A stretch of 64,000 nt of DNA from Lunularia cruciata. Taxonomy: Eukaryota > Streptophyta > Marchantiopsida > Lunulariales > Lunulariaceae. The stretch is taken from positions 4,717,001-4,781,000 of the forward strand of contig OX419758.1 of the NCBI GenBank assembly GCA_948567375.1, written 5' to 3'. This document shows positions 20,279 through 63,625 of this stretch, in pieces. How positions within the stretch are numbered: position 1 is the first letter of the stretch; every line of letters starts with the position of its first letter. Made by a program: the position numbers and the translations under genes. Under the pieces are notes generated by a model. It was given only the letters and a program-made list of their open reading frames with translations. It was not told where the DNA came from and made no database searches.

Positions 20279-20295
20279 TCCCGGCAACGGAACCA
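20279..20295 (-). promoter_or_regulatory. Primer-binding site of A1
   Basis: Minus-strand TGGTTCCGTTGCCGGGA, four bases from the 5' LTR end. It is the same as in A2 (40031-40047). It is not an iMet site; it resembles the sites of Athila/TAT-type elements. The exact tRNA needs a search. Confidence 0.8.
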
Positions 20296-20299
20296 AAAA

Positions 20300-20991
20300 T
20301 GTGAGCCGGCCTGTCTCTCACTCAGGATGAACCTCTGATGGCTATTATGGTAGCGCACCATGGACTAAGAAGGCAAGGAACCCCAACTCCATCATACTCC
20401 TCCAAGGCTAACACTCCAAGACTCAAGACATTACTCACTAGAGAACTCAATGAGAAAGAGATAGTTGCAAATGAAAGGATGATGAGTACCTCCTCACTCC
20501 TTGTTTATATACTTGTGAAATAATTACGTACCAAAGTTACTAATTACTGTAGTAACTCAAGTTACTAGACTAAAAGTCAAGTAAAGTCAAAAAGTAGAAA
20601 GGAATATCCATTCACATGGGCATATTCCCCTAAGCATGTGGTCTTATCTTGACCCAACCACTAAAGCAAGGATTCCTTCACATGGGCTATCCTTGGACTA
20701 AAGAAGAATCCAAAACAAAAAGGCTTGCGGGCCCAAGAGTTCTCAACTCTTTCCCCAAAGCCAAACACCTAGGAATAATACCAAGTCAACACACTAAAAT
20801 CCAAAATAGTGGTGCTCATCTTTTCTACTTCCTCTAAAGTAAGGTCCCATCTATCTTAGCTATGACTAACTTTAGCTAACCATGACTAATATAGAACCAT
20901 CCTTTATCTCTATATAAATAATATCTCTTAAGTACTTGTAATACCAAGCTAAATATCACAATACCACACACATGCACAAATGGGTGTTACA
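20300..20991 (-). repeat. 5' LTR of A1
   Basis: 692 bp, same ends as the 3' LTR, next to the primer-binding site. Relative to the 3' LTR I see transitions at the GAACC(C/T)CTGATGG, CATT(G/A)CTC, GAGA(G/A)AGA and ACC/ACT GTAG positions. Confidence 0.95.
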
Positions 20992-32789: not shown

Positions 32790-32916
32790 TGTCACGCCAT
32801 TTGTAGTGTCACATCTAGATTGCTCAAACACAGGAGTTGCAATGATAGAAGTTAGAGCTATTTTAGTAGTTTCCCATAGATGATTTTATGATAGTCAAAT
32901 TTTCTATTTGGGGTAC
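32790..32916 (+). repeat. E1 left LTR, part before A2
   Basis: TGTCACGCCATTTGTAGTG matches 49751 onward and the end of E0 at 803. It continues after A2 at 40748. Confidence 0.85.
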
Positions 32917-33608
32917 TGTGAGCCGGCCTGTCTCTCACTCAGGATGAACCTCTGATGGCTATTATGGTAGCGCACCATGGACTAAGAAGGCAAGGAACCC
33001 CAACTCCATCATACTCCTCCAAGGCTAACACTCCAAGACTCAAGACATTGCTCACTAGAGAACTCAATGAGAGAGAGATAGTTGCAAATGAAAGGATGAT
33101 GAGTACCTCCTCACCCCTTGTTTATATACTTGTGAAATAGTTACGTACCAAAGTTACTAATTACCGTTGTAACTCAAGTTACTAGACTAAAAGTCAAGTA
33201 AAGTCAAAAAGTAGAAAGGAATATCCATTCACATGGGCATATTCCCCTAAGCATGTGGTCTTATCTTGACCCAACCACTAAAGCAAGGATTCCTTCACAT
33301 GGGCTATCCTTGGACTAAAGAAGAATCCAAAACAAAAAGGCTTGCGGGCCCAAGAGTTCTCAACTCTTTCCCCAAAGCCAAACACCTAGGAATAATACCA
33401 AGTCAACACACTAAGATCCAAAATAGTGGTGCTCATCTTTTCTTCTTCCTCTAAAGTAAGGTCCCATCTATCTTAGCTATGACTAACTTTAGCTAACCAT
33501 GACTAATATAGAACCATCCTTTATCTCTATATAAATAATATCTCTTAAGTACTTGTAATACCAAGCTAAATATCACAATACCACACACATGCACAAATGG
33601 GTGTTACA
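32917..33608 (-). repeat. 3' LTR of A2
   Basis: 692 bp, next to the polypurine tract at 33609. Confidence 0.96.
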
Positions 33609-33619
33609 TTTACCCCCGG
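33609..33619 (-). promoter_or_regulatory. Polypurine tract of A2
   Basis: Minus-strand CCGGGGGTAAA directly before the 3' LTR. Confidence 0.75.
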
Positions 33620-33656
33620 ACTAAGTTTTCACTTTGTCCTCAAAGTGAAGGTCTCT

Positions 33657-36600
33657 CTACCTTCTATGGTACATCTTCAACTTATCATGGTTCATCCTAT
33701 CAAAGTGTCTTCCTCCCAACTCCTTGAGATCATAAGTGTAATTTCCCCACACCTTCTCTACTATGAAAGGTCCAAAGTACTTAGGCAAAAACTTCTTTTG
33801 CACTCTCTTGAATCGAATGGAATCAAACAACATTACCCAATCACCTTCTTTGAAAGGCTCCACCTTCTTCTTGCCTTGCCTCTTGTCATAGCTCTCCTTC
33901 TGTTTCCTTTGGGCTTGCTCCACTCGAACCATAGCAACTGCTCTTGCCTCTTCCAACTCCATGAGTTGATCCTTCCTTGACTTCTTTGCATCACCTCCTT
34001 GTGCTTTCTTCAATCTCCTATGAATGCTTTGGAAAGTAGGAAGATCAAAGTGAATAGGTAAGGTAGACTCAATACCATACACCAATTGAAATGGAGAATA
34101 TCCAGTGGAAGTTTTCATGGTTGTCCTATACTCCCACAAAACTGCATGAATCCTCTTGTCCCAATGATGTTTAGCCCCCTCCATTTCTGCATCTTTGGCC
34201 AACATCATGCACAAGGTCTGATTGGTTCTCTCTGCCAAGCCATTGGAATTTGGCTTATAGGATGTAGTTACTCTATGTGTGATAGAGAAATGTCGTAGCA
34301 TGGCTGTAGTAATGCTTCTTGTAAACTCTCCTCCTCTATCAAAAACCAACTCCAAAGGGCATCCAAACCTAGTGATAATGCGTTCATAAAGAAATCTACC
34401 CACTTCATCTTCATTCTTGTCCCTCAATGGTCTAGCCTCAACCCACTTGGTAAGGTAATCAGTAACTACCACAATGTACCAATTGTTCCTTGGGGTTCTA
34501 TTGAGAGGACCTACAAAATCAATTCCCCACTTCTCAAAAGGTCCTAGCAATGGAATTGATCTAAGTGGTGGAGTGGATGTAGACTTTCTAGCAAAAGCTT
34601 GACAAACATGACAAGTTTTGCAATAATCAAGACAATCCTTGAAAATCCCTCTCCAATGGTAACCTGCATCTAGAATCTTGAAAGCAGTCACCTTTCCTGC
34701 AAAATGTCCTCCACATACTAAACCTTCATGAAACTCCTTTATGAGTAGGATAGACTCTTCCTTACCCACTGCTCTTTGAAGTAGACCATCTGCTCCTTGG
34801 TGAAAAAGAATATCCTCCACCATTGTGTAAGGTCTAGATCTTGCTGCAAGGGCCTTCCTCTCCCTAGCATGCATCCCTTTTGGATAGTTACCTTTTGTCA
34901 CAAAATCCACAATCTCCTTGTACTCCATTGGAACCTCTTGAGTGACTGAGATTGTCATGAGCTCCTCATCCGGGAAGGAATCATCCACTGGCTCATCTCC
35001 ATCATGATCATAGGCTCTAGATAATAAATCAGCATTTGCATGTTTCTTTCCTGGCCTATCTTCAATGGTGTAGTCATACTCAGACAAGAGTATCATCCAC
35101 CTTGCTAGTCTCCCTTCAACATTAGGCTTGTTGAAGATGTACTTCAAAGCCTTGTGATCCGTGACAATGGTGGCTTTCCTTCCAATCAAGTAGTGTCTAA
35201 ACTTCTTGAGACCAAAGATCACTGCCAACCCTTCTCTCTCCGTGACAGAGTAGTTCTTCTCTGCTGAAACCATCTGCCTACTAGCATAAGCTATTGGATG
35301 ATCATGCCCATCTTGGTCTAATTGACTAAGAGTGCATCCTATAGCTACATTAGAAGCATCAATGTAGAGGATGAAAGGTTTACTCCAATCAGGTTTAGCA
35401 AGAATTGGAGCTACAACAAGGGATTGCTTGAGCTCCTCAAAAGCTTTGAGAGCCTCCTTGTCTTCCAAAATCACCATGTAATCTACACCCTTCTTCATGT
35501 AGATGGTCAATGCATAAGCCTTGTTGGAAAATGAGAAGATGAACCTCCTATAGTACCCAACCATCCCCAAGAATTGGCGTAACTTTGTCAAGCTTGAAGG
35601 GAATGGAAGGTCTGAGATTTTCCTCACCTTCTCAGGATCAACTGCTATTCCATCCTTGGAGATGATATGCCCCAAAAGTAGACCTTCTTCACATCCAAAA
35701 ATGCACTTCTCTGGGTTGAGTGATGCATTTGCCTCATCCAAGCGTTGCAAGACTTTGATTAGGTGCTCAAAGTGCTCCTCCTTGCTCCCATAGACACAAA
35801 AGTCATCAATGAAATCTCTCACAAGTTTCCCAATGAAAGGTTCAAATACCTTGTTCATGAACCGTTGGAATGTGGCTGGAGCATTGCAAAGCCCAAAAGG
35901 CATGGCCTTGAAAGCGTAAGTTCCCCAAGGTGTGGTGAATGTGGTGAGTTGTTGATGCTCTGGTGCAATCTTGATTTGGTTATATCCACTATAACCATCT
36001 CCAAAACTGTACCTCTCATGACCTGCAACCTCCTCCAAGATCTCATCAATGAATGGCAATGGGTAGTAGTCCTTCTTGGTAACAGCATTGAGCTTCTTGT
36101 AATCCACACATACCCAAAGCTTGCCATTCTTTTTCTTCACAATGACAATTGGAGACACCCATTCTGAATTCTCCACCTCAAAGATAAATCCAGCCTCCTT
36201 GAGCTTATCAATCTCCTCCTTCACAACCAAAGATATCGGTGGGCTAATGCGACGTTGCTTTTGGCGGATTGGTCTTGCATGTGACTCCACCTCTATCTTG
36301 TGCTCCTCCAAGGTGACTTCCTTCAAATCCTTGTAACTAAAAGCAAACACATGGATGAACTTGCGAAAAATCTCCTCAAATCTCACCTTCTTCTCCTTGG
36401 TAACATTTGGGCCATACTTGAGGGTAGATAACCTTCTCTCTACCTCCTCAAGTGTCAATGGTGATTTATCTGGGTCCTTCAAAACCTCTGGCTTAGGTGC
36501 AAAATCCATAGCACACAAAGGATACACATCTGAATCAGATTCAGATTCATCCTCCTCCGTGGAAGTCTCCTCTTCCATGCTTGTGTCCACACCTGAAGCT

Positions 36601-38483
36601 CCTTCTTCAGAATCTGATTCCCAATAATCAGAAGATGGTGTATCTGAATGTGAAGTGTTGGTGGTGTTAGTCACAGGAACAGTGACTCTATGGTTTGATG
36701 GCCCAATCCTCAAGTACCCTTTGTGCCATCGATCAGTTGTGCGTGCTGCTCTCAACCATGGCCTCCCAAGAAGTAAGTCATAGCTTGAATCCTTCAAGAC
36801 TTGGAAAGTCATGAGATTTTGAACTCCCATAACTGAAACTACCACCTTATCCATCACCCCTACTGGTTGAACTTGTTGCTTGTTTGCCATGCTCACCACA
36901 AATGTTGAAGGTCTTGAGGGTATCATACCCAACTTCTTCATCAACCTTTCTGACATGGCATTCACTGCTGATCCTCCATCAACCAATGCATCCTTGATGT
37001 TGTGACCATTCACTCTCACATCAATCTTGGAGGCATATTCACAAGCTTCCCATGGTGTTGGCTTGGCATCCACCACCCCCATTGATACTGGAACTTTTGC
37101 CTTCTTCTTCTTCTTGCTCCTTGTAGAACTCAAACCACCTCTAAGCTCCTTTCTCAAGGTAGGGTTCAAAGCAATTAATTGGCCCACTGTGATGTTAGCC
37201 TTGTGACTACCAACATCCTCCAACACATTGTAGTTCCATTGTTGCTTTGAGATCAAGAAGTCCTCCAACCCCAACTTCTTCCTTGGAGTCTTTGTTGTTG
37301 ATGGTGTTGAGGTGCGAGTGCTCCTAGTAGACATAGGAGTATCCTTGCTTGAAGTAAATCCTTGAGAAGAGTGAACATCCTCTGCAAAACGAGCTCTCTT
37401 CTTCTCTTGTGCCAAAAGCTCCAAATTAAGACCCTTGGAGTTTGAGCACTCTCCCTTCTCATACTTGCTCTCAACCACATCTATGGATGCTATCCCCTTA
37501 CCTTTGTTGGGATTAGGAGCCACTTGGGTTTCACTACTTCCCTCTTTCCCTCTATTGGCTCCCTCATAACCCCTTCCTCCATGGTAAGTGGAATTTGGGC
37601 AATTCCTTTGGATATGGCCTCTTCCTCCACAACCAAAACAATTTCTATCATTGAAATTGTTAGCTGGTTGGCCTCCTCTATATGGATAGTTTCCATAACT
37701 CCTAGGCCCTCTCCCTACATTCTGATCCACCTCTCTCTTCTCCCATAGTTGCACCACATTGATCTTGAGATCCGCAAGTTGTTCTGTGATGGTTTGGAGT
37801 GGATCTTTTGGTGGAGGTGCAAGAATTGGAGCAACTACTACTTGTGGTGCAACCCTTGTCACCAAAGTATCAGAAGTTCCACCATACTTGTAGCCTTGAG
37901 GAGGATGCACAACCTCCTTCACCACCAAATCACTCTCATCCCCTTCCAAACTCTCCTCCATACGAATTGCGATCTTGATAGCTCCAACCTTGGAAGAAGG
38001 TTTCTCATATCTCACCTTGCTTCTAATTTGTGGTCTCAATCCTCCCACAAAATTCTTGGTGAGCATGGCCCCTATGCCAATCATTGTAGTCTCCACATCA
38101 TCCCCACCCTTCCTCAACACTATGCGAAATCTGGACTCCAACTTTTCCACTCTTTCCACATAGACCCTCACTTTCTCTCCATCTCCTTGCTTGAGAAATG
38201 TAACCTCACTCATCAATCTCTCATAACTCTCATCAGGAAGAAAGTACTCAATGAGTGCTGAAGTCAAAGTCTCCCAAGACTCCTCTTCCCCTTCTCTCCT
38301 CTCTCTCTTTTGGTATTCTGACTCATACCATGTAAGTGCTGCATCCTCAAAGAAATCTGATAATAATGAGGCCCACTCATTCTTCATCCTCTCATTGTTT
38401 CCTATGCAAGCTCTCTTGAAGTCTCTTACAAAGGCCTCCACATCTTCTCCATCCTTGCCAAAGAAAACCGGAAGTTTCCCCAT
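33657..38483 (-). CDS. A2 Gag-Pol polyprotein
   Basis: One 1608-codon frame from the ATG at 38483. In order: gag domain (about 10-125); CCHC knuckle C282-C285-H290-C295; basic linker; retropepsin with an unusual D502-G-G-S active site and LLGRPWL at 571-577; acidic linker (615-655); RT with the first Asp in FGDG (829) and FIDD at 891-894; RNase H with D1042 and TDHK at 1108; integrase zinc module (H1252, H1260, C1291, C1294); catalytic D1322, D1382 and E1418 with the standard D-35-E spacing; C-terminal GPF/Y-type region (KYFGPF). Gag and Pol share one frame, so the Gag excess needed for particles must come from processing or translational control. No stop or frameshift is present; it is the only intact pol in the window. 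Confidence 0.96.
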   Translation of the reverse strand: MGKLPVFFGKDGEDVEAFVRDFKRACIGNNERMKNEWASLLSDFFEDAALTWYESEYQKRERREGEEESWETLTSALIEYFLPDESYERLMSEVTFLKQGDGEKVRVYVERVEKLESRFRIVLRKGGDDVETTMIGIGAMLTKNFVGGLRPQIRSKVRYEKPSSKVGAIKIAIRMEESLEGDESDLVVKEVVHPPQGYKYGGTSDTLVTRVAPQVVVAPILAPPPKDPLQTITEQLADLKINVVQLWEKREVDQNVGRGPRSYGNYPYRGGQPANNFNDRNCFGCGGRGHIQRNCPNSTYHGGRGYEGANRGKEGSSETQVAPNPNKGKGIASIDVVESKYEKGECSNSKGLNLELLAQEKKRARFAEDVHSSQGFTSSKDTPMSTRSTRTSTPSTTKTPRKKLGLEDFLISKQQWNYNVLEDVGSHKANITVGQLIALNPTLRKELRGGLSSTRSKKKKKAKVPVSMGVVDAKPTPWEACEYASKIDVRVNGHNIKDALVDGGSAVNAMSERLMKKLGMIPSRPSTFVVSMANKQQVQPVGVMDKVVVSVMGVQNLMTFQVLKDSSYDLLLGRPWLRAARTTDRWHKGYLRIGPSNHRVTVPVTNTTNTSHSDTPSSDYWESDSEEGASGVDTSMEEETSTEEDESESDSDVYPLCAMDFAPKPEVLKDPDKSPLTLEEVERRLSTLKYGPNVTKEKKVRFEEIFRKFIHVFAFSYKDLKEVTLEEHKIEVESHARPIRQKQRRISPPISLVVKEEIDKLKEAGFIFEVENSEWVSPIVIVKKKNGKLWVCVDYKKLNAVTKKDYYPLPFIDEILEEVAGHERYSFGDGYSGYNQIKIAPEHQQLTTFTTPWGTYAFKAMPFGLCNAPATFQRFMNKVFEPFIGKLVRDFIDDFCVYGSKEEHFEHLIKVLQRLDEANASLNPEKCIFGCEEGLLLGHIISKDGIAVDPEKVRKISDLPFPSSLTKLRQFLGMVGYYRRFIFSFSNKAYALTIYMKKGVDYMVILEDKEALKAFEELKQSLVVAPILAKPDWSKPFILYIDASNVAIGCTLSQLDQDGHDHPIAYASRQMVSAEKNYSVTEREGLAVIFGLKKFRHYLIGRKATIVTDHKALKYIFNKPNVEGRLARWMILLSEYDYTIEDRPGKKHANADLLSRAYDHDGDEPVDDSFPDEELMTISVTQEVPMEYKEIVDFVTKGNYPKGMHARERKALAARSRPYTMVEDILFHQGADGLLQRAVGKEESILLIKEFHEGLVCGGHFAGKVTAFKILDAGYHWRGIFKDCLDYCKTCHVCQAFARKSTSTPPLRSIPLLGPFEKWGIDFVGPLNRTPRNNWYIVVVTDYLTKWVEARPLRDKNEDEVGRFLYERIITRFGCPLELVFDRGGEFTRSITTAMLRHFSITHRVTTSYKPNSNGLAERTNQTLCMMLAKDAEMEGAKHHWDKRIHAVLWEYRTTMKTSTGYSPFQLVYGIESTLPIHFDLPTFQSIHRRLKKAQGGDAKKSRKDQLMELEEARAVAMVRVEQAQRKQKESYDKRQGKKKVEPFKEGDWVMLFDSIRFKRVQKKFLPKYFGPFIVEKVWGNYTYDLKELGGRHFDRMNHDKLKMYHRR

Positions 38484-38717
38484 CTTAACCCCTCACTATC
38501 TTTCTTTTCTCTCAATTTTTTTTTCTCTTTTTTTTTCTCTCACTCTATTACTAATAGAGTATATACATGACTAACACCATCTGAGAATAATCCACTCTAG
38601 GGAACACAAAAGGTTCAGGTTGCTCCAAGATTTCTATAGCAACATCAAATCCTAGAGTGCATATTAATCTAACTCTCATGGATAGTTTATCCATAAGTTT
38701 AAAGATTATCTCCATCA

Positions 38718-39191
38718 CTAATCTTGAGAACTAGCTGATGAAGGTGGTAGTATTTCTGTAGCTGTACTAAGACTCTCTCCAAGATCCTTCACCAAAGTTT
38801 CCAAAAGTGCTTTTACTCCACTACACTCATGTCCTTTTGGAAGTCCTTCAACTCCACAAACCTCACACAACTCCTTGGTCTTAGATCTTCTCCCTCCAAA
38901 TCTTGGTGAAGAAGGTCCAACATGCAAACCCAAGTCAAGTAAGCCTCTCCTTTCCCTCAATCTCTTGCTCTCAAAGGTCAATGGACATGAACTTGCCTTA
39001 TGTCCCTTCTCTCCACATAGAAAGCACTTAGACTCACTCTTTCCTCCAAGTGGTGTAGGTTTTTGGATCCTCTCAACACTCTCTTCAAATTCTATTGTAA
39101 ACTCTCTTTTCCTCAAATCCACCCCTACAATCACCTCAAACCCTTGGGGAACCTTGCATAATCTCAATTTCCACTCTTGATGACCCTCCAT
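38718..39191 (-). CDS. A2 upstream ORF with two zinc modules
   Basis: 157 codons from the ATG at 39191 (MEGHQEWKLRL), between primer site and gag-pol, separated from the gag ATG by about 230 bases that include a T-rich run. It has the CCHC knuckle CFLCGEKGHKASSC, a basic Arg-rich stretch, a second cluster CEVCGVEGLPKGHEC and a helix-prone tail. It differs from the A1 copy by only a few residues. Its role is unknown. Expression would need an upstream start, re-initiation or splicing, because it lies 5' of gag. Confidence 0.78.
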   Translation of the reverse strand: MEGHQEWKLRLCKVPQGFEVIVGVDLRKREFTIEFEESVERIQKPTPLGGKSESKCFLCGEKGHKASSCPLTFESKRLRERRGLLDLGLHVGPSSPRFGGRRSKTKELCEVCGVEGLPKGHECSGVKALLETLVKDLGESLSTATEILPPSSASSQD

Positions 39192-40030
39192 GTTCCCCAA
39201 GATGAATCTAAACACTCAAACATGCTTTTTGTTGATCTCAAACTTCTCATGCATGAGATCTCCACTCTGCAGAATTAACCCTTCCTCACAATGTCACTCA
39301 AATCTCCCAACCAATATGTCACAGTCCTCTGAAATTTTCCACACTTGATCACAACTCCAGGGCGTCCCTCCCTGCAAAACTTCAGATCTTTTCATCGAGC
39401 CATTTGGCCTAGACACCTTTCTATTCAGCACCCATATTTCAGATTTGGTCTGAAAACCACCCCCTTGACTTCAAAAACTCATAACGCCCTGCGCAAAAAC
39501 GATCTCTCTCTAATTTGTGTGGCAGCAGGTAGGATACAATGCACTGAATTTTCTTGCAAATTTTCAGGACAATTCACTGAAAATGGAAGAAATGGCAGAC
39601 TCTGTACAATTTTCCAGAGAGCATGCAGTTGCGGGAGCACTTTACCCTATCAACTTTCAAAAATTCTAGCCCAGTGCGCATAGAAGCTCTCTCAATAATT
39701 TCAAGTTTGCTAACTGAAAGATAACCCAAGCTATCATGTGTAGAAATCTCAAGTCCAGATCTCAAACTTGAGATTTTGCCCAAAATCACCTTAATCCCCA
39801 AAATCTGCAATCCACCTCACACAATCTCTCCAATTCCTCTCATGTGTACAAGATGTACAAAATCACCTCAAAGACATCATAATGAACTACAGGGTATACA
39901 AATGGATCTTGGTTCTCTATCATAAGTTCAACCCTCTCCTCTCCTAATGTTCTCTCCAAGTGAGCTCTCATAGCCTCCTTCTGCCTAATGTACAATTGGA
40001 CGCAGAACATTATCTTGCCTTCTAGAGAGG

Positions 40031-40047
40031 TCCCGGCAACGGAACCA
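40031..40047 (-). promoter_or_regulatory. Primer-binding site of A2
   Basis: Minus-strand TGGTTCCGTTGCCGGGA, four bases from the 5' LTR, identical to A1. Confidence 0.8.
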
Positions 40048-40051
40048 AAAA

Positions 40052-40743
40052 TGTGAGCCGGCCTGTCTCTCACTCAGGATGAACCTCTGATGGCTATTAT
40101 GGTAGCGCACCATGGACTAAGAAGGCAAGGAACCCCAACTCCATCATACTCCTCCAAGGCTAACACTCCAAGACTCAAGACATTGCTCACTAGAGAACTC
40201 AATGAGAGAGAGATAGTTGCAAATGAAAGGATGATGAGTACCTCCTCACCCCTTGTTTATATACTTGTGAAATAGTTACGTACCAAAGTTACTAATTACC
40301 GTTGTAACTCAAGTTACTAGACTAAAAGTCAAGTAAAGTCAAAAAGTAGAAAGGAATATCCATTCACATGGGCATATTCCCCTAAGCATGTGGTCTTATC
40401 TTGACCCAACCACTAAAGCAAGGATTCCTTCACATGGGCTATCCTTGGACTAAAGAAGAATCCAAAACAAAAAGGCTTGCGGGCCCAAGAGTTCTCAACT
40501 CTTTCCCCAAAGCCAAACACCTAGGAATAATACCAAGTCAACACACTAAAATCCAAAATAGTGGTGCTCATCTTTTCTTCTTCCTCTAAAGTAAGGTCCC
40601 ATCTATCTTAGCTATGACTAACTTTAGCTAACCATGACTAATATAGAACCATCCTTTATCTCTATATAAATAATATCTCTTAAGTACTTGTAATACCAAG
40701 CTAAATATCACAATACCACACACATGCACAAATGGGTGTTACA
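40052..40743 (-). repeat. 5' LTR of A2
   Basis: 692 bp with the TATA box on the minus strand at 40256-40263. Confidence 0.96.
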
Positions 40744-40747
40744 GTAC

Positions 40748-41066
40748 CGACTTCATTGTGGGGCCCACCATCACTTTGCATTGTTTGCACCATTGAGTGT
40801 GATATCAACAAGATTGTTAAGGTTCTAGACCTAGCTCAAGTCCAGGGATATACTTTCAAAGTGCAGCTCTAGAGAACTCACTTCTCTAACGTTGAGCCTT
40901 CTAGTTCATGGTGGACAGAGGCTGGTGAGCGTCACCTAGATTCTCTTAGCTAGAGTGGGTATGGCTTGACTATAATAAATGCCTAGTTGTTGGTAGTTTA
41001 TAGAGTGACAAATCAAGTACTGATTTGAGTTGAATTGATTCAAATGTTGTAAACAATCTGATTACA
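40748..41066 (+). repeat. E1 left LTR, part after A2
   Basis: It continues the E LTR from the GTAC target through GGGGCCCACCATCAC to AATCTGATTACA. It aligns with 49875-50200 and, inverted, with 312-690. Confidence 0.85.
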
Positions 41067-42248: not shown

Positions 42249-43870
42249 GTGGTATTTCATGGGTATTGGCACTTAGTGGTGTTCAGTTGGTGTTGGCACT
42301 TGGTGGTGGAGTACTTGCAGTTGCAATTGCAGTTGGTGGTTCCAGTTTGTGGTTATTTTGTCACGATAGAGTTCTTTGGGGATTCCAAAGGAGTTAGCCA
42401 TGTAGTACATAGTAGGTTTACTCGGAGTGGTGCTCGGTATCATTCTATATCTCAGGTTTTGATGAGGGAGGAGAATGACTCTGAGTTGGAGTTTGATACA
42501 AGAGTTGATTCAATTGAGAGTGCACTTGGCATGTTTGCACCGTTGTTGTAGGACATAGACAAGATTTATGGGGCCTCCAAAGGCCCTAGGCATTTCTTTG
42601 GTACAATGGGTACCTTTGATTTGGATGACTTTATCTAGTAGTTTGGTAGTTGGTGTGATCTGCATTAGATGCGGAACCAAACTTTGTTTACACCCTTCAT
42701 GGCATGGAAGAGGTTGTTTCAACATTTGGAGGGTCCATCAATGGATAACTACCATGAGTTCAAGAGAGCTCATTTAGAGATGATTGAGTTATGGAGATAG
42801 TATTGGTCTCCAAACTATGCCTCTATGACTTCAAGCTTGGTTTCCAAGAGTAGATCGGCTGTACCCGCAAGTTCTAGCTCAAGTAGTGTTGGTGGAGCCA
42901 GTGGAAGTGCACTAGCTAAAAATAGTGTTACCACGAGTGGAGGTACTGTTGTAGGAAGTGCTGTGGTATCGGGGTTGAACCCCATGGTGGAGTTCTTCCA
43001 ATGTTTGAGGTAGAAGTACTAGGGAGTGCAAACTAACAAGCTGAGGAGCTAACAAGAGTTCCAACGGAAGGCTAGAGAGAGCTAACGCAAGGCATATACT
43101 TGCATGAGGCGGCTGATCAGTTTCACTCAAGGAGTTACAAAGGCCCAAGCAGTCCAATTTTGGTATGGGATACTGGACAAGGAGTTGCAATGTAGAGTTC
43201 GTGATGCTACGTTGTTACAAGCTACTTTGCCTACTTTGGCAGTGGTCTTTGGTTTGGTTGAGTGTATTGAATTCAACATAGTGGAAGAGAGGGTGGTGAT
43301 ATCTGGACTTGGTAGGGAGACCTCATCTATAGTTGTTACTTCTTCTAGACAGCAGTAGAGTGCACCATGCCCAATTGGTTTTTGAGTACAAGGTGGACAG
43401 CCCAGATCCTATGGAGCGAGTCGAGGGCCGAGTGAAGCTAGACCCTTACCTTCCTTTTCAGGTCAACAATAGCCAATGAGTGGTAGTGTTGCTTGTTGGA
43501 CTTGTGGTGGACCTCACCATTGGAGAGAGTGTACTCAAGGCAGCAGACCCCATACTTCTGGTGCATCATAGCTAGCACCAAGGCAATGTGAGCATTGCCA
43601 CAGATTTGGTCACACTAGTGATTGATGCTTTGACCTACACCCGGAGTTCATGGAGGACAAGGTGGTAGAGGTGGCGGTAGAGGATCTACACCTAGTAAGG
43701 GTGCAGTATCTACCCTTACTTTTGATACAGCTATGGCTACTTGGATTGAGCAGTTGGAATAGAGATTGGCTAGTATGGCCATTACTCAAAGGAGATCAGA
43801 TTTGGGTGCTGGAGGCTTCCACCTCATATGTTGGTGATAAAGATGTTTTGGACTTCATGTGAAGAATGGC
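42249..43870 (+). pseudogene. E1 Gag
   Basis: Frames at 42249-42551, 42825-43013 and 43104-43358 share one reading frame. The block 43104-43358 (MRRLISFTQGVTKAQAVQFWYG…) is the gag core. Two CCHC-type knuckles follow: CWTCGGPHHWREC near 43497-43540 and CEHCHRFGHTSD-stop-C near 43588-43630. A Gly/Arg-rich tail (GGQGGRGGGRG) comes after a frameshift near 43640. About ten stops are present. Gag would form particles and bind RNA. Confidence 0.75.
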
Positions 43871-44096
43871 ATAGGTGGATGCATCTGCAACAATGACTAG
43901 GAGTGCAATATGTGCTCTAGATACTACATGAGCATCAGTGGAGTTGGACCCACAGAGAGGAGAGGTTGGGAGATATATCAGACTTCCTAGTCTTTTACAC
44001 TTGACGTCCCAGTGCATGTGTGGTAGGTGGTGATGGGGTGCATGATGGACTACCTACTAGCCAGCCACTTGCTACTACACAGATTGAGTCAGCACA

Positions 44097-44760
44097 ATGT
44101 TGAAAGCAGCTCAGCTGATTATACCGTGCCCTTTGTTTTCAACTAGTGACATGTTTACATTGGGAGTTGACCTAGCCCCAATGTTCCAATTGGCTACCAT
44201 GCTTTGTGAGGGTAGGGATGATGCAGTTCTTACTACTAGAGTAGAGGTGGTTGATAGTAGAGTTGACTTGGTTGCGGAGCATGGGATCCGTTCAGCAACT
44301 AGTGGTTTATGGCAAGTAGCCATGACTAGATTGGAAGAGTTACCAACTAGACCAGCCTTTGAGAGAGCACAGTTCACACTTGGTGTTGTCCTATTGGATA
44401 ACCAGAGGGGGATTTTCCATTTGGTGGGACCTTTAGGGAAGGTCTATACACCACAGAGAGTCTTGTTAGACTCTGGTATGCAACCCCTTATGTTGGGCAA
44501 GGCTATAGTAGTCGGTCTGGAGTTATGGAAGACCAATGTGGAGAGGTGTCCATTTTAGATCCAGACATCTCTAGGTGGTGGTTTGACACACTATACATCA
44601 CACATTGGGAGCTTGTTGTCCAGGTTCAGCCTGGTCATCTTATTGATAGCTCAGTGGTGAGAGCTCTGGCTATTGCAACAATAGTTGAGTCATATAATGT
44701 GCTAGTTGGAGGAGTAGTGCTATATCCCATGGGTTTCAGTATTGACTATTGGGACCTCCT
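44097..44760 (+). pseudogene. E1 aspartic protease
   Basis: The 153-codon frame at 44097-44558 ends in the retropepsin core: RVLLDSGMQPLMLGK, with the D-S-G triad at 44469-44477. The later part, in another frame (GGVVLYPMGFSIDYW, about 44700-44755), would complete the domain. It stays close enough to a working protease to identify the fold but has frameshifts. Confidence 0.75.
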
Positions 44761-45128
44761 ATAGACTAAGTTGGCAGTCTGGTGAGGGAAGGGTATATTG
44801 CGTACCGATATGCTTCAGTAGTGGCAGTCTTGGCTCACTACAATTTGGGACCAAGGCAACATCAGTTTCAGCTTTCAATAGTGTAGCTACTTGGCTAAGT
44901 GACTTGTTGGAGGGGAACGCCCATACAAAGGATACTCTAGTACTAGAGGAGATCACTTGGATTTGGAGTACGAGTGGGATTGTTCCATCCACCTTGGATG
45001 TTCCATTGTGGAGTTCAGAGGAGGCATTGTAGCAGCATGCAGATCAATTGGTGCAACAGGCTTGAAGTGGAGTTTTTGTACCATTGGGAGATGAGTGTGA
45101 GGATGAGCCTCAAGAGTCAATTACTTTG
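44761..45128 (+). pseudogene. E1 linker between protease and methyltransferase
   Basis: An open block (44742-45032) is in the same frame as the methyltransferase that follows. It has a WQSGEGRV motif, then DLLEGNAHTKDTLVLEEITWIW and a VPLWSSEEAL segment, followed by an acidic stretch (DECEDEPQESI). Only two stops lie between this block and the methyltransferase linker. It shows that the methyltransferase was part of the polyprotein. I know no domain for this linker. Confidence 0.6.
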
Positions 45129-46160
45129 ACACCTCTGAATACCACACTCATTGCTTGGTAGTATCTTGTAGAGGAGATATGTCTTTTAGAATTATTTGAT
45201 TGGATTAGCATCAGACTAGCTGCAATATTATAGGTGTGTATACGAATACAAAGGTACTTGTATGTAGAGAGAGATGAGACTGCTAGGAGAGTCTCTCTAC
45301 ATCATATGGCACACTTGGTCTACCGGTAATTTAAGTTATTACTAATATCAATAGTCAGAGGTTACCAGAAGGCCCTACCAATAGACATTTCCTTATTGGG
45401 GGCGCATGATCTGGAGAGATATGGGCCTATTCATTTGGTGATTTCTAGATGGCCATGTCAAGGATATACACATGTTGGCCAAGGTTTGGGTCTTCTAGAT
45501 CCTCATTCAAGTATGTTTTGGGAGATGTTATGGATACTACAACATCTCTAGGTTCATCAGTCTATTTCTCCAACTTACTTTTTGGAGAACATTCCTTTCA
45601 TGGGTGATTCTTGCACCACAGTGGTGGCGAGTACACATCAAGTCCAATCTTGGATGGGACGTGTTGTATTGTTGGATGCAGCCAGAGTGGGATCACAAGC
45701 TCATCATCTTTGTCTTTGGTGGACAAACTTATTACCCATAGAGGTTTTACAACGTGCATATGATAGGATTCAACAACTAGACCACATCCTTGTTGATGAC
45801 ATCTTGGATGTGGGATGTGAGTCTCAAACGGTGGTAGTGGCTGATAGGTCACTTATAGTAGTGGTGAACCTAGTTGGACAGCCTAGAGCCGCTTTTCTCA
45901 CACTTATGAGTTTCCCAAGCTCTTATGCTTTTTGAGAGGGAGGACCTTGACTTGTTTGGGACTCACAGTTATAGAAATTGGTGGAGCCCAATGCCAATGA
46001 GAGAGAGCGGGCGATGGGTTTTTTCATCGGTATTACTGTTGTTCCAATAGTGTTAGAGGCGTCCAGGTGTTAGGTACTAGGTCAGGCTATGGACCTAAAC
46101 TGTTTGACCTAGATTGCAAACCTTGGTTTGGCAGAGCAACGTAGGATGTGTTTGATAGGC
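45129..46160 (+). pseudogene. C5-cytosine DNA methyltransferase domain, DNMT3/DRM type
   Basis: One frame holds the conserved motifs in order: motif I CLLELFDWIS (45180-45209), motif II YLYVERDE (45258-45281), motif IV WPCQGYTHVG with the catalytic Cys codon at 45456-45458, motif VI FLENIPFMGD with the Glu codon at 45585-45587, the VVLLDAARVG segment (45663-45692), motif VIII AHHLCLWWTN (45699-45728), and a C-terminal ERERAMGF and VLGQAMDLN block (about 45996-46100) like DNMT3 motifs IX-X. Order without permutation and the LDAARVG.AH.....W.N pattern point to DNMT3 and not to DNMT1/CMT or rearranged DRM. Stops at 45159, 45231, 45327, 45549 and 45933 kill it. It would have methylated DNA cytosines. 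Confidence 0.85.
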
Positions 46161-47460
46161 ATCACCACTCAAACCCTTGTGGGCCTTGTGCCTATCGAGA
46201 TGATTCAGGCACATGTTGTGGGCAACAAACCGAGTAGACATGGTATTCTTGGGACACAACCAGTAGCTTCTAGGGAGAGTCGTCTACTTGGAGTCTATCC
46301 AAGTGAGCATGTGCTACTTGGATTACACCCTTGGTCTACTTGGGATGCAACTAGAGGACGTGTGGAGCTTGCAGCCAGAGTGGAGGGAGTTTTTCACACA
46401 AAGGTTGGAACTCTAGTGGTCGGGGACATGACACTACTGCTCCCAAGGGCCCAGTGTAGCAGCCAGTAAGTAAATCTTCCACTCTTGAGATAGTTACAAA
46501 GGATACTTGGGAGCCAGATCTTGGACCCAAGCTTACAAGAGAGGAAAGACGGAGAGTTTGGAGGTTTTTGAGGAGCTACACAAGTTGTTTTACCTTTAGT
46601 ATGAAGGATTTGGGTGCCCTGAAGGGACCTGGTATATAGATTGAGCTGACTAGCAATACACTAGTTTTCCAACATCCTTATCACTATAGTGACATGGAGA
46701 GGACATTGATTTAGAGTTGGAGTAGAGACCTTTCTGAGGTTGGTTTGGTGGAGATCTCACATGGAGAGTTTGCATCTAGCCATAGATGCCAGCCAAGAAG
46801 GATATGCATGGCAACTACACAGATAGGCGGATATGTGGAGATTACCGTCCTATCAACCAATAGATTAGGGCTGATCGGTATGCCATGCCTACACCTAAGG
46901 AGATTTTTGATGTGATTGGGCATGCAAAGGTCTTCAGTACTTTGGATCTTCAAGTAGGATATCATAAGTTGCCAATAAAGAAGGAGGATAAGTCCAAGAC
47001 AACATTTGGGGTTATTGATCCTCACTGTAAGGATGTGTTATATTAGTGGAGGTTCTTACCATTTGGGTTAAAGAATGCTCTTTTTGAGTTCTAGAGGGTC
47101 CTGAATAGGATCCTAGCTGGATTGGATTTTGCTTGGTGTTATATTGATGACATTTTAGTCTATAGACCTATTGTGGAAGAGCATGAGAGACAATTGTTAG
47201 AGGTGTTTGAGAGGTTGAGATCTCATGGATTCAAATTACATCCTAGGAAGTGTAGGTTCTTCCACAAGTAGGTTGAGTATTTGGGTCACACTATCTACCC
47301 TGGAGGACTTGGTGTTCAGTAGACCAAGGTGAAGGCTATTGCACATAATTCTTGGCCTACGGATGTGAGCAGAATGCAATCATTCCTTGGGTTGGCAAAC
47401 TTCTATCGCTGCTATGTTAGAGGATTTAGTGCCATTGCCAAGGCCTTGACAAAGCTGACC
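46161..47460 (+). pseudogene. E1 reverse transcriptase
   Basis: A further open block in the methyltransferase frame (46128-46469) leads into the pre-RT region (LTREERRRVWRFLRS near 46530). The RT proper runs from 46786: RRICGDYRPINQ, FSTLDLQVGYHKLPI, WRFLPFGLKNA, then YIDDILVY with the catalytic codons at 47140-47151, and VEYLGHTIYPGG. It carries five or more stops, mostly at Gln and Trp codons. The solo A LTR cuts it after FSAIAKALTKL. Confidence 0.85.
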
Positions 47461-48155
47461 TATGAGCCGGCATGTCTCTCACTCAGGATGAACCTATGAT
47501 GGCTATTATAGTAGCGCACCATGGACTAAGAAGGCAAGGAACCCCAACTCTATCATACTCCTCCAAGGCTAACACTCCAAGACTCAAGACATTGCTCACT
47601 AGAGAACTCAATGAGAGAGAGAGAGATAGTTGCAAATGAAAGGATGATGAGTACCTCCTCACCCCTTGTTTATATACTTGTGAAATAGTTACGTACCAAA
47701 GTTACTAATTACCGTAGTAACTTAAGTTACTACACTAAAAGTCAAGTAAAGTCAAAAAGTAGAAAGGAATATCCATTCACATAGGCATATTCCCCTAAGC
47801 ATGTGGTCTTATCTTGACCCAACCACCAAGTCAAGGATTCCTTCACATGGGCTATCCATGGACTAAAGAAGAATCCAAAAAAAAAGGTTTGCAGGCCCAA
47901 GTGTTCTAAACTCTTTCCTCAAAGCCAAACACCTAGGAATAATACCAAGTCAACACACTAAAATCCAAAATAGTGGTGCTCATCTTTTCTACTTCCTCTA
48001 AAGTAAGTTCCCTTCTATCTTAGCTACTACTAACATTAGCTAACCATGACTGATATACAACCATCCTTTATCTCTATATAAATAATACCTCTTAAGTACT
48101 TGTAATACCAAGCTAAATTACACAATACCACACACATGCACAAATGGGTGTTACA
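47461..48155 (-). mobile_element. Solo LTR of family A in the E1 RT/RNase H
   Basis: 695 bp, plus-strand TATGAGCCGG (first G mutated to A) to GGTGTTACA. A perfect duplication GACC lies at 47457-47460 and 48156-48159. The E1 protein continues directly across it (ALTKLT then QEWCWGDEQ). It is more diverged than the LTRs of A1 and A2 and so is older. Confidence 0.95.
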
Positions 48156-48660
48156 GACCAAGCTTACACAGGAGTGGTGTTGGGGAGATGAGCAGGAGAG
48201 AGCTTTTGTAGAGCTCAAGGAGAGGTTGACATCTTCTCTTATTTTGAGGAGACCAATCAGAGGACGACCATCTCATGTTCATACTGATTGGAGTATGTTG
48301 GGGCTTGGAGTGGTTCTCACCCAACATGATGATGAGGGGAAGGAGTTTGTGGTGGCTTATGCTAGTCACTCCAAATAGCAGATGCAAAGTATAGTTCATA
48401 TAAAGGAGAGTGCTTGGTAGCAATTTGGGCAATAGCACATTGCTGATGTTACCTATTTGGTAACCCCTTCACTCTCATCATCAATCATCAACCGCTAAAG
48501 TGGTTGATGGAGTCCGACAAGCTTTCAGGGAAGCTTGCATGATGGGCTCTTATTTTACAGGAGTATGATTTCATGGTTGTTTACAACCTTAGAGTGATGA
48601 ACCATGATGCAGATGGGTTGAGTAGAAACCCATGTCCCGGCCAACAAGATTAGACCGGAG
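48156..48660 (+). pseudogene. E1 RNase H
   Basis: It opens with QEWCWGDEQERAFVELKERL and the RNaseH core VHTDWSMLGLGVVLTQHDDEGKEF (first catalytic Asp in HTDWS). The WKWLM-type and YDFMVVYNL segments follow near 48500-48590. Several stops are present (after SHSK, at ESAW, and FGQ). It would degrade the RNA of the RNA/DNA hybrid. Confidence 0.8.
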
Positions 48661-49746
48661 CACGTTGGCATGGTGAGACAGATGAGGAGATGGTGCTAGG
48701 TTGGCATGCATCGGCCTTTCAGTGTATATTTTTTGAGACGTTGGTGGCATACAAGAGGAGTTATTGAGGTCACATATCCAAAGAGTGAAGATATTGATAC
48801 AATTTAGCAAGACATCCATGGTGATGTCTTACTGATGGACTATCTTTGCACTGGTCTTGTGAGTAGCAAAGTTGGGGCCAAGGGGAGAGACCGTGTTCTT
48901 CAGCAAGCCAAATGGTTCAGATTGGAGGGCAGACATCTTTTGCATGTATGGGAGGATGGTAGAGTGAGAGTAGTACCACTTCTATCTCAAAGACTACAAT
49001 TGGTCTGTCATGCTCATGAAGAGCTAAGACATTTTGGAGTTAAGCGTACATATAGCTTACTCCAGAGTCATTATTGTTGGCACGGGATGCAGACCAAGGT
49101 ACAATAGTTTGTTGCTAGATGTGTGGTTTGTGACCAAGTTAGAGCATCATTCAATGCTCCTATGCCACAATTACACCCATTACCTATCATGGGATTGGGT
49201 TATCATTGGAGTTTGGACTTTGCTGGACCTTTACCGTTGACAATGAGACATCATTGATATGTTTGGGTGATGGTAGAGATCACCTTAAGGCAGATGGCTT
49301 AGTAGAGAGAGTGGTTTAGCCAGTGAGAAGAGGACTGCAAAAGCATGGTTTGCAGAGAGGCCACTTAGGAGATTGGGATCTCCAATTACCTTGGTTGGCC
49401 ATGGGCTATCGGTTCAATCGGCAAGCCTCCTTAGCATCCTTCTCTCCTTACTTTCTACTCTATGGACGAGGTCCAGATTTACCTACAACCATTCATTGAG
49501 ATGCTACTATAGTCTTGGACTTGGATGATCTAGATGTGTGGGTGAGCACATGTTCTCAATGGGCAGAGATCTTTCAGAGAGTGATGCCAATGGCCTTTGA
49601 GAACTTGGCAATTGCTCAACATAGGGATACCTTATGTTATGCTACTATTCAAGGAGGAGGTTATAGAACCTCAATCCGTCAATTTCATCCAGGTGACTAT
49701 GTATATCTACTACAGACAACACCAATGACATTTATGTTTTGATAGG
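48661..49746 (+). pseudogene. E1 integrase, first part
   Basis: DIHGDVLLMDYLCTGL near 48815 leads to the zinc module HAHEELRHFGVKRTY…CVVCDQV (49009-49135). The core begins GYHWSLDFAGPL (first Asp near 49215). After YVWVMVEI the sequence jumps to ADGLVERVV: about 70 residues containing the second catalytic Asp are deleted near 49280. The rest (HLGDWDLQLPWLAMGYRF, PYFLLYGRGPDLP) is readable to FHPGDYVYLL at 49700. Confidence 0.82.
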
Positions 49747-49750
49747 CCAC

Positions 49751-50305
49751 TGTCATGCCATTTGTAGTTCCGCATCTAGATGCTCGGACACTGGAGTTCC
49801 ACTGATGGTAGTTAGAGTTATTCTAGCTGTTTCTCAGGGACTACTTTCCGACGGTTAGATTTTGTGTTCGGGGTACTGACTTCACGGTGGGGCCCACCGT
49901 CACTTTGCACCGTTTGCACCGTCGAGTGTGCCGTCAGCGGGACCGTTAGGGTTTCAGGGCTAGCTCGAGTCCAGGGGGTATAGTTTCGAAGTGAGCTCCA
50001 GAGAGCTCACTTCTCTGATGTTGAGCCTTCGAGTTCCTGGCTATGGTGGACAGAGGCCGGCGAGCGTCACCTGGATTCTCTATGCTTGAGTGGGTGTGGC
50101 TTGACTGTAATCAGTGCCCAGTTGTTGGCAGTTTATAGAGTGACAGATCAAGTACTGATCTGAGTTGAGTTGAGTTGAAAGTGTTAAGCAATCTGATTAT
50201 TGTGGCACTTTAGAGTCTATGTATGACTTATGTGTGAGTTGTGCTTTTATAGTGTATGATGTTGACAGCGATGTATGTTGTGTAGCAATGTATATACGCA
50301 CGACA
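49751..50305 (+). mobile_element. Solo LTR of family E in the E1 integrase
   Basis: 555 bp from TGTCATGCC to CACGACA, with inverted ends (TGTC/GACA) and a 4-bp duplication CCAC (49747-49750 and 50306-50309). The integrase C-terminus reads on across it: GGCCAC then ACTATCTTGAGGAGAGTG gives a TILRRVREVLPS segment. It therefore inserted into E1 and is not E1's own 3' LTR. The last 105 bases (50201-50305) form the TGTGGCAC tail repeat. Confidence 0.85.
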
Positions 50306-50389
50306 CCACACTATCTTGAGGAGAGTGCGTGAGGTTTTGCCATCTAGAGTCCTTGTGAAGAACGTGATGGTGTTGTTTGGAAGGATCAT
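50306..50389 (+). pseudogene. E1 integrase C-terminal segment
   Basis: TILRRVREVLPSRVLV and, after a one-base shift, EERDGVVWKDHVHNCAPCHLPN, which leads without a stop into the PHD finger. It is the small C-terminal domain of the integrase. The CAPCHLPN motif may be a further metal-binding element. Confidence 0.7.
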
Positions 50390-50614
50390 GTGCATAATTG
50401 TGCACCATGTCACCTTCCAAACATTGATGGTTCTATGGACCCAAGCTTGGCACTTATAAGTGTAGGCTTGAGGTGTATGTTATGTGGCTCTTCCGGTGGA
50501 GCTGCTACTATGTTAATCTATGATAGGTGTTTGAGAGGATGGCATATGGCATGTATGACTACTCCCTTCACGGTGGTTCCTCAAGGACAATGGTTATGTC
50601 CTAGATATACTTGA
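50390..50614 (+). pseudogene. PHD finger at the C-terminus of E1 Pol
   Basis: The frame holds a C4HC3-type pattern: RCMLC (ligands 1-2), MLIYDRC (ligand 3 replaced by Tyr, ligand 4 kept), GWHMAC (His and ligand 6), VPQGQWLCP (ligand 7), then RYT, where ligand 8 is also Tyr. The spacing, the hydrophobic ML before the third ligand, and WHMxC and VPxGxWxCP are classical PHD features. Both lost Cys can be explained by single G-to-A changes. PHD fingers read histone H3 tails; here it occupies the place of a chromodomain and could have guided integration. That role is inference. Confidence 0.85.
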
Positions 50615-50888
50615 CCTATAGCTAGTTCATTCTTTATATGGTATAGATTGCAAATAGATGACTAACAATGAGGACTCCATAGCACTTGACCTTCTGATCT
50701 TTGTCCATCATAGTGCATACCATATACTTGGAGTAGATGGCTATCTGGAGTTAGGGGGACCTAACCGCTAGCTAGGGTGGCAATTGTGGCACTTTAGAGT
50801 CTGTATATGACTTATGTGTGAGTTGTGCTTCTGTAGTGTATGATGTTGACAGCGATGTATGTGTGTAGCGATGTATATACATATGACA
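50615..50888 (+). repeat. E1 3' end: tail and 104-bp terminal repeat
   Basis: After the PHD stop there are 170 bases of non-coding sequence with a GTTAGGGGGACC purine run, then 104 bases (50785-50888) that match the tail of the solo E LTR at 50201-50305. The body of the 3' LTR (TGTCATGCC to GATTA) is missing, so the LTR appears to be internally deleted. E1 ends here, because D2 chromodomain sequence starts at 50889. Confidence 0.65.
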
Positions 50889-61576: not shown

Positions 61577-63625
61577 TTGATTAGTTCCAATGGGATTGAA
61601 GGCTCGACCTATGCAAGTTTGCTTCACTTGCAAGGTACGATATCTAATTGGGGTTGTAGGATTTTGGTTGATTCTGGAAGTTCAAAGAATTGCATATTTA
61701 TGCAAGTAGCAAAGGAATTGGGTATTCCTATCAAGCCAATGATTGGAAGTAGTTTGATGATGGCGGATGTTAGAAACAGTTCTGCATTCCGCACCTTGCA
61801 TCCTGTTACCTTCAAAATTGGGAAGGATTATTTGGAGTGCATGAGGTTTGTAGTGGCACCTCTACACTATGATATCATTCTGGGTCTACCTTGGCTTGAA
61901 CGTCATAAGGTTCAATTCGATTGGACCCGACGTCAAATTCAAGTACAACACCAAGGTAGGAATTTCCGATTAGGTTGTCTGGCACCTCTGAGTAAGACAC
62001 CTAAGAATAGTCAGTCCCAAGATGGGAAGTTTGTTGAGAAGGTAGCCATAGAGCAAATCTGGAAGGGAGATGAGTACCAAGATGGGAAGTTTGCCAAGAA
62101 AGCAACCATGGAGCAAGCTTGGAAGAGAGATGAGTCCCTAGAAGGGAAGTTTGTTAATGAAGCAGCCATAGAGCAAGCTTTGGAGGAAGATAAGTCTGTA
62201 TTTGCGGTGTGGATCAAGCCGATTGCACAAGAACAATTTGAGGAGGGCCAGGTGCCGCATCAAGCAACGGTTGATCAAATAGTTCAGGAGTTTGTAGATG
62301 TGTTTCCGGATGATCTGCCAAAGGGATTACCCTCTGATCAAGGTATGCCCTTCAAGATCAAGTTATTGCTAGGGAGTACTCCAATGAGTAGACCAATCTA
62401 TTGGCTCTCACCAAAGGAGTTGGAGGAGTTGCGAACAACACTTATAGAATTGTTGGAGAAGGATTTCATACAACATAGTACTTCTCCATGGGAAGCACCG
62501 GTACTATTTGTTCCAAAGAAGGATGGAGGACTTTGTTTATGTATTGATTATTGTGGGCTCAATAAGCAAACCGTGAAGAATGCATATCCCTTGCCTTGGA
62601 TCAATGACCTACTTGATCAATTAAGTAGAGCACGCTACTTTTCCAAGCTAGATCTTTGTAGCGGCTATTGGCAAATTCCTATTGAAGGAGAGGACGTGCA
62701 AAAGACTGCCTTTTGCACAAGGTATGGACATTTTGAATGGAGAGTTCTACCTTTCGGACCCACTAATGCTCCAGCAATCTTCATGGATCAGATGCATCGG
62801 GTGTTGGAAGGACTATTGGATCAGTCCGTGGTAGTGTTCTTAGATGATATCTTAATCTATAGTACGACAGAGGCAAAACACAAGAATCATGTGCGAGAAG
62901 TCCTAAGACGACTACGACAGTGGAAATTTTACTGCAAGAAGTCAAAGTGTGCTTTTTGGCAGGAGGTTACCTTCTTGGGTCATAAGATCTCATCAGAGGA
63001 GATCAAGATGGAAGAAGAGAAGATCAAGGCCATTACTGATTGGCCTACCCCAAAGGATGCTACCGAAGTACAAGCATTCAATGGATTGGCCAATTTTTAC
63101 CGACGGTTCATCCACTATTATGCTCATGTAGCTGCACCATTGACTGACCTCTTGGGAAAGAACTCGAGCTTCCAATGGACCACCAAGCATGAAGAAGCAT
63201 TCCAGAAGTTAAAGCATATGGTGTCTTCAAGACCCATTCTTCAACCATATGATCCTCAACTACCTTGTGTGGTTGATTTTGATGCTTCTAACTTTGCAAT
63301 TGGAGTTGTGTTGCAACAAGAATTTCCAGATGGACTACATCCTATTGCCTTTGTGTCTTGCCAACTAAATACAGCTGAAAGAAATTACTTTGCTTGATAT
63401 CAGGAACAACTTGCAATGGTATATGCCACCAAGGTATGGAGGCATTATTTCTTGGAGAAACAAGTGATCATGCAAACTGATCACAAGCCATTGTTGCAGA
63501 CCTTACACCTAGAGCACATGAGGAGTCGACATCATCAATGGGAAGAGCAACTCTAATTTTTTGACATCAAACTCAAGTACAAACCAGGTTGGTTCCATGT
63601 CATCCCTGATTCTCTATCACAATGA
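61577..63625 (+). pseudogene. D3 protease, RT and RNase H
   Basis: One frame open from 61577 to the TGA at 63395. Protease: RILVDSGSSKN, LLHLQ and ILGLPWLERHKVQFDW. Three 20-residue repeats at 62016-62195. RT: FIQHSTSPWEAPV, KLDLCSGYWQIPI, FEWRVLPFGPTNAP, catalytic FLDDILIYS (LDD codons 62840-62848), FLGHKIS. RNase H: VVDFDASNFAIGVVLQQ, KVWRHYFLEKQ, QTDHKPLLQ. Stops: TGA 63395-63397, TAA 63554-63556 and TGA 63623-63625. The frame is otherwise undamaged, so this copy is recent or decays slowly. Confidence 0.9.
62016..62195 (+). repeat. Three 60-bp coding units in the D3 PR-RT linker
   Basis: Units at 62016-62075, 62076-62135 and 62136-62195 encode SQDGKFVEKVAIEQIWKGDE and two variants. They lie between the protease end and the RT start, in frame, and are predicted helical. 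Confidence 0.92.

Follow-up and report, generated by a model that had tools for sequence, protein, structure and literature searches.

The 64,000-nucleotide stretch of the Lunularia cruciata (Marchantiopsida) genome analyzed here, referred to as the window (assembly GCA_948567375.1, contig OX419758.1, positions 4,717,001 to 4,781,000), contains an old, dead copy of a large bryophyte family of Gypsy-type retrotransposons that carry their own DNMT3-type C5-methyltransferase (DNMT). The family is real, large, and under selection in a land plant, and its enzyme lies on the Gag side of a conserved stop codon; the role of the enzyme is a matter of proposal. The family layout is a 5' repeat (A1), a first open reading frame (ORF1) encoding gag, zinc knuckles, a retropepsin, and the methyltransferase, a UAG codon, a second frame (ORF2) encoding reverse transcriptase (RT), RNase H, a DDE integrase, and a PHD finger, and the 3' repeats B1-A2-B2. 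Such elements were previously known from one alga and from dinoflagellates, and here thousands of matches were found in a single plant genome. Because the plant uses DNA methylation against such elements, one that keeps its own methyltransferase under selection presents a paradox.

The initial annotation, made from the window sequence, had described a DNMT3-type enzyme from motifs lying in a single plus-strand frame at window positions 45129 to 46160, flanked by retropepsin and RT. The motifs are located as described, and tblastn recovered the flanking protease (about 44091 to 44795) and RT (46460 to 47457). However, the frame contains nine in-frame stops that the annotation did not mention, and together with frameshifts and insertions these mark the window copy as dead; as a statement about this copy the claim is not supported. 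As a statement about a plant Gypsy-type element it is supported, the domain being a constant component of a large family and having been under purifying selection. The best borders of the domain, from tblastn, are 45105 to 46148 (plus strand). With X placed at the stops, the window piece matched PF00145 (DNA_methylase) weakly (E value, 0.0061; 16.5 bits, below the 22-bit cutoff) and matched DNMT3A in PDB with an E value of 0.0028. Searched against about 5.8 billion proteins, the same piece retrieved 47 relatives at an E value of ≤0.01 among 2,185 candidates, the best with an E value of 1.6e-127 and 61% identity over 98%, which excludes chance similarity. When relatives were scanned singly, 10 of 10, 10 of 10, and 7 of 8 in three sets passed the Pfam cutoff for PF00145, a profile match that is thus significant on relatives and weak on the decayed copy itself.

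In the aligned relatives, motifs I, IV (PC), VI (ENV), VIII, IX, and X follow one another in linear order, with the PC and ENV catalytic residues among the most conserved positions; motif I of the window copy has decayed. The predicted fold is that of DNMT3A, and the domain is closer to DNMT3 than to enzymes of the DNMT1, DRM, or bacterial kinds. It does not have the rearranged motif order of DRM enzymes, which is present in the host's own DRM gene (L003). These results confirm the domain as a DNMT3-type C5-methyltransferase.

The 565.8-Mb assembly (74 contigs) was searched for further copies. A 26-mer from the DNMT occurred 3,868 times and a 26-mer from the RT 4,415 times (whole genome, at most two mismatches; reversed controls, 0), which shows the DNMT to be present in much of the family. 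A search with PF00145 scored 123 matches out of 2,161 candidates, the plant's own DNMT3-type and DRM genes among them, and P0001, used as a protein query, gave 111 of 13,362, near full length and at 72 to 74% identity, of which 66 were free of stops by hand count. Twenty copies were fetched from the PF00145 matches, with a choice leaning to long open frames. In 19 of these, gag, knuckles, protease, DNMT, RT, RNase H, and integrase follow in this order, so that the domain does recur between protease and RT in other family copies, and neither outcome that the initial annotation had named as refuting it was obtained; the remaining copy (L013) is without gag, knuckles, and protease. Pfam reported RVT_1, RNase H, and rve on the ORF2 of one copy and PF00145 alone on the ORF1 of one copy, where neither gag nor protease was recognized; we called gag and protease from their resemblance to Marchantia frames, from LLDSG, and from the CCHC knuckles. 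A pair of A repeats was found in 18 of the 20 copies. Over their first 206 to 235 bases, A1 and A2 are 84.7 to 99.6% identical and exceed 95% in 15 of the 18, which indicates that some copies are recent. These data support the DNMT domain as a fixed part of a large family. The plant also has a DNMT3-type gene of its own (L002, in two pieces, with linear motif order) and thus possesses both a DNMT3-type and a DRM gene.

All of the 15 organism-named entries among the 47 relatives are from bryophytes, both liverworts and mosses, namely Calypogeia fissa, Sphagnum troendelagicum, S. jensenii, Marchantia polymorpha, M. paleacea, and Riccia sorocarpa. With an alignment as query, 578 proteins reached an E value of ≤0.001 among 8,000 candidates scored; the 120 listed include, besides bryophyte-like entries, metagenome entries at about 45 to 55% identity, three of which (P0103, P0056, and P0107) carry the protease end in the same frame as the DNMT. 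A family protein filed under a Candidatus Obscuribacterales metagenome-assembled genome (P0095) is probably eukaryotic contamination of the bin. With the protease-DNMT piece as query, 58 proteins were found at an E value of ≤1e-5 among 8,000 scored, including long frames from Marchantia. No Klebsormidium sequence was present among the entries returned. Pfam scans of eight proteins from the protease-DNMT search showed PF00145, RVT_1, and RNase H in two Marchantia gene models (P0141 and P0152) and PF00145 and RNase H in P0144; in P0150, a Sphagnum fallax model, Pfam reported the integrase, and the DNMT aligns at 50 to 55% although PF00145 was not reported. Compared with Marchantia P0134, the DNMT is above the protease in identity in P0138 and P0139 (73 to 74% versus 53 to 58%), below it in P0009 and P0028, which are gene models with gaps (61 to 62% versus 69 to 73%), and about equal to it in P0103 and P0056. 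In a 29-row tree, six copies and the window copy form a clade (100/99) inside a bryophyte-like clade (100/98), where its position relative to Riccia and M. paleacea did not resolve. A grouping of the window copy with Riccia in a first tree (97/85) was dropped, as the window copy joins the copies from its own genome once these are added. A scan of viral contigs returned a single unrelated phage methylase locus (L001). One consequence for annotation is that DNA (cytosine-5-)-methyltransferase is the name given to some proteins of Marchantia and Sphagnum that are encoded by transposons.

Selection was assessed on 23 copies (17 to 23 per domain) by comparing variants found in one copy with those shared by at least two. 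In the DNMT, singletons comprise 74 nonsynonymous (N) and 30 synonymous (S) changes, an observed/neutral N/S ratio of 1.00, and shared variants comprise 40 N and 38 S, a ratio of 0.44 (Fisher P = 0.0083). From singleton to shared variants the ratio goes from 0.86 to 0.18 in gag (P = 0.0002), from 1.47 to 0.33 in the protease (P = 0.003), from 0.69 to 0.48 in RT (P = 0.33), from 0.95 to 0.77 in RNase H (P = 0.75), and from 1.06 to 0.77 in the integrase (P = 1). Repeat mutation at hot spots can also yield shared variants, which would pull both classes toward neutrality. Mean pairwise dN/dS, a measure proposed with the initial annotation, was 0.42 for the DNMT, 0.25 for gag, 0.39 for the protease, 0.24 for RT, 0.40 for RNase H, and 0.57 for the integrase. 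The data support purifying selection on the DNMT in replicating lineages, weaker than that on gag and similar to that on the protease. Among stops of the window copy that could be compared, 15 of 20 lie one C>T or G>A step from the commonest codon of the other copies (gag, 5 of 8; DNMT, 6 of 8; RT, 4 of 4), as expected of methylated, decaying DNA.

The boundary between DNMT and RT was compared in 25 copies with both domains (24 fetched copies and the window copy). Each of the 25 has TAG-CAG at one and the same alignment position; 22 keep this stop in frame with the DNMT, and L006, L028, and the window copy have an indel. DNMT and RT are 648 bases apart in 21 of the 25, and in 23 the six bases 3' of the stop conform to CAR-YYA and lead into an open, conserved frame. 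The junction with its exact flanks occurs 641 times in the genome (control, 0), and among about 100 junction places listed, all on one contig, all have TAG except two with TAA. Frames of other bryophyte families (P0003, P0007, P0014, and P0044) end at about the same place, as judged at the protein level only. Similarity to the Sphagnum model restarts about 15 codons past the stop, upstream of where ORF2 has its first Met, a position more in keeping with readthrough than with a new start, and we infer that ORF2 is expressed by UAG readthrough. An RNA structure that would stimulate readthrough was rejected (z score, +1.21; one copy folded). Since the DNMT lies upstream of a UAG in a readthrough context, it should be made in Gag-like amounts.

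At the other end of the coding region, PF00628 (PHD) was found at the very end of ORF2 (E value, 2.2e-10; one copy scanned, L023:9306-9491), and the corresponding stretch is present in all 20 copies as well as the window. PHD fingers are common readers of histone tails. Repeat layout and 3' ends were examined in L030 to L035 together with L018, L020, L023, L024, L025, and L029. Rather than plain long terminal repeats (LTRs), with the same repeat at both ends, all six copies whose 3' ends were fetched begin with A1, of about 449 bases, and finish with B1 (about 107 bases), A2, and B2. With the unit read as TG...GACA, 4-base target duplications match, by eye, in four of the six and at a solo repeat in the window. 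The elements do not belong to the DIRS class, as the ORF2 of one copy has rve and no phage-integrase match at an E value of ≤0.01, and 4-base target duplications flank four of the six copies. Split repeats, a DDE integrase, and 4-base target duplications are thus combined in one element.

The initial annotation suggested that the element could set or maintain methylation of its own DNA or that of its host, which is a plausible hypothesis. We propose that in replicating copies the DNMT would form the last part of a Gag-side polyprotein, with RT-integrase produced when ribosomes occasionally read through the UAG. Such an enzyme would be plentiful and probably packaged in the particle, where the most likely substrate would be the element's own cDNA, methylated before integration; new copies methylated in this way may pass for host DNA or evade surveillance of unmethylated DNA. 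We give this reading a probability of roughly 0.55. If readthrough is confirmed, the Gag-side position shifts attention from host chromatin to the particle. As the family has relatives in Marchantia and Sphagnum, with methylomes or genetics, the role of a retrotransposon DNMT becomes directly testable.

Several observations weigh against this reading as a whole. Many Gypsy elements manage without a DNMT. RT, RNase H, and integrase show no significant contrast between singleton and shared variants, a test of little power in these domains. The target-recognition part of the model is poor, with a predicted local distance difference test score (pLDDT) of <50 at residues 265 to 303. The heavier CpG loss that self-methylation might leave was not seen: the median CpG ratio of copies L010 to L029 is 0.45, versus 0.13 to 0.14 in two elements of the single other Gypsy family of the window compared, both sets including recent insertions. 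Finally, the enzymes of KnitGypsy-Dnmt3 and SymbioLINE-Dnmt, described below, showed no activity in yeast, in an assay that the authors call inconclusive (PMC5890265).

An alternative that we consider unlikely, although less so than the others, is that the enzyme acts on chromatin: the integrase-PHD would read histone state and the DNMT would methylate the landing site or sister copies, so that the element would hold itself in check and do its host less harm. The PHD finger that ends ORF2 in 20 of 20 copies is in line with this, and slower transposition is raised as a possible benefit by de Mendoza et al. (PMC5890265). However, the stop places the DNMT with Gag and away from the integrase-PHD, and thousands of copies fit weak restraint at best. 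We regard it as improbable that the enzyme methylates RNA, such as the element's genomic RNA in the particle. A Gag-side enzyme would adjoin that RNA, PMC5890265 considers the idea for SymbioLINE-Dnmt, and the weak PDB matches include a C5-methyltransferase that acts on tRNA (6fdf; E value, 0.0069), but DNMT3 comes first by both sequence and fold, far above the tRNA methyltransferase. It is equally doubtful that the domain is noncatalytic, its role lost or never present, and kept as a structural or nucleic acid-binding part of Gag. Its place on the Gag side would suit such a part, and the nearest described enzyme showed no activity (PMC5890265), whereas conservation is among the highest at the catalytic PC and ENV residues. 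Although the host has a DNMT3-type gene, a retrocopy of it fallen by chance into one element is extremely improbable, and a one-off insertion is refuted, by the same position of the domain in 19 of 20 copies and in other bryophytes, by the 3,868 occurrences of the DNMT word, and by an identity of only 29% over about 120 residues to the host gene.

The window copy follows the family layout on the plus strand. The left part of A1 (32790 to 32916) aligns at 76 to 77% to repeat A of young copies, and its last four bases are one copy of the target duplication of an unrelated Gypsy element nested in A1 (32917 to 40743, minus strand), which is outside the DNMT element and has LTRs of 692 bases with one mismatch and a 1,608-amino-acid open frame (33657 to 38483, minus strand). 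The right part of A1 (40744 to 41064) was placed by alignment with young copies, and A1 is uninterrupted once the flanks of the nested element are joined. ORF1 begins with gag and its CCHC knuckles (42555 to 43649; 51% to residues 1 to 354 of Marchantia P0134 by tblastn), followed by the retropepsin-like region (44091 to 44795; tblastn with P0152 and P0028), in which LLDSG was identified by eye and whose end is frameshifted. Copy alignment places the UAG and the following CAGCCA at 46457 to 46465, out of the DNMT frame owing to an indel. The frameshifted RT (46460 to 47457) is 57 to 65% identical to Marchantia P0141 and P0152 and is separated from RNase H (48160 to 48725) by a solo LTR of the nested element's family (47460 to 48155; 95% to the LTR at 32916). 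RNase H and the DDE integrase (48778 to 49733) were located by tblastn. A young solo A-B repeat of the DNMT family (49751 to 50305; 98% to repeats A and B of young copies; target duplication, CCAC) lies in the integrase end, which resumes with the PHD finger at 50310 to 50611 (PHD, 50426 to 50611) at about 90% nucleotide identity to young copies (PHD, 81%). Comparison with young copies places B1 at 50783 to 50888; A2 and B2 were not found downstream of it. The stretch from 49751 to 50199 was rejected as the element's 3' LTR, being part of the young solo repeat, and its 81.4% identity to A1 (Kimura two-parameter distance [K2P], 0.22) is for that reason no age. A candidate primer site, TGGTATC, lies about 53 bases past A1 and not beside it.

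No second DNMT was found in the window at an E value of ≤1e-4 (tblastn, same protein queries), and tRNA and Rfam scans gave 0 matches each. The minus strand of positions 1 to 803 holds repeat A and the leader of another DNMT-family copy, with its body left of the window. The other Gypsy family, without a DNMT, has two elements (32917 to 40743 and 14271 to 20991) and solo LTRs at 6349 to 7041 and 47460 to 48155, and a 606-amino-acid frame of a further Gypsy element without a DNMT match lies at 61577 to 63397 (plus strand).

In-frame stops likewise part the coding region in tobacco mosaic virus (TMV), MuLV, and the plant retroelement SIRE1 (PMC4132726 and PMC2194720), and the CAR-YYA context is shared with TMV; here the stop parts DNMT from RT and readthrough is predicted. 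With plant DNMT3 (PpDNMT3a/b type; PMC6453930) and DRM, the element domain has the DNMT3 fold in common, and its linear order is that of DNMT3. In contrast to these host genes, which contain introns and of which plant DNMT3 has a C-terminal DUF3444 domain, the element domain is intronless, has only about 29% identity to the exon of the host DNMT3, and lacks the DRM rearrangement.

Retrotransposon-borne DNMTs are known from dinoflagellates and the charophyte Klebsormidium (PMC5890265), as the initial annotation had correctly stated, and one paper states that such elements are absent from land plants (PMC6338049). We found no report of them from land plants or bryophytes in the open-licence literature, though subscription papers and supplements may hold one. 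The dinoflagellate SymbioDIRS-Dnmt3 and SymbioLINE-Dnmt also carry cytosine methyltransferases, of the DNMT3 type in the DIRS case, but are described in sections of PMC5890265 as a DIRS element with tyrosine recombinase and a LINE, rather than Gypsy with a DDE integrase. The closest system is KnitGypsy-Dnmt3 of Klebsormidium nitens (de Mendoza et al. 2018, PMC5890265), which, by its description in the same sections, has in common with the bryophyte family the Gypsy domain set, an unrearranged DNMT3-type domain in its coding region, DIRS-like terminal repeats in the order A-coding-B-A-B, and a DNMT under purifying selection. It differs in that its host is an alga rather than a land plant and its DNMT is described in the Pol ORF, whereas in the bryophyte family the UAG parts DNMT from RT in 25 of 25 copies, although some Marchantia gene models join both. 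The bryophyte family also has thousands of copies and a PHD finger at the integrase end, which those sections do not mention for KnitGypsy-Dnmt3. The shared split-repeat layout, compared with KnitGypsy-Dnmt3 by description, makes common descent likely and puts in doubt the Klebsormidium case as a lineage-private acquisition. More tentatively, charophytes and bryophytes may share one ancient streptophyte retroelement lineage in which DNMT3 would be a Gag-side particle enzyme that methylates the element's own cDNA before integration, RT-integrase-PHD would be made by UAG readthrough, and an unusual cycle would combine DIRS-like split repeats with a DDE integrase.
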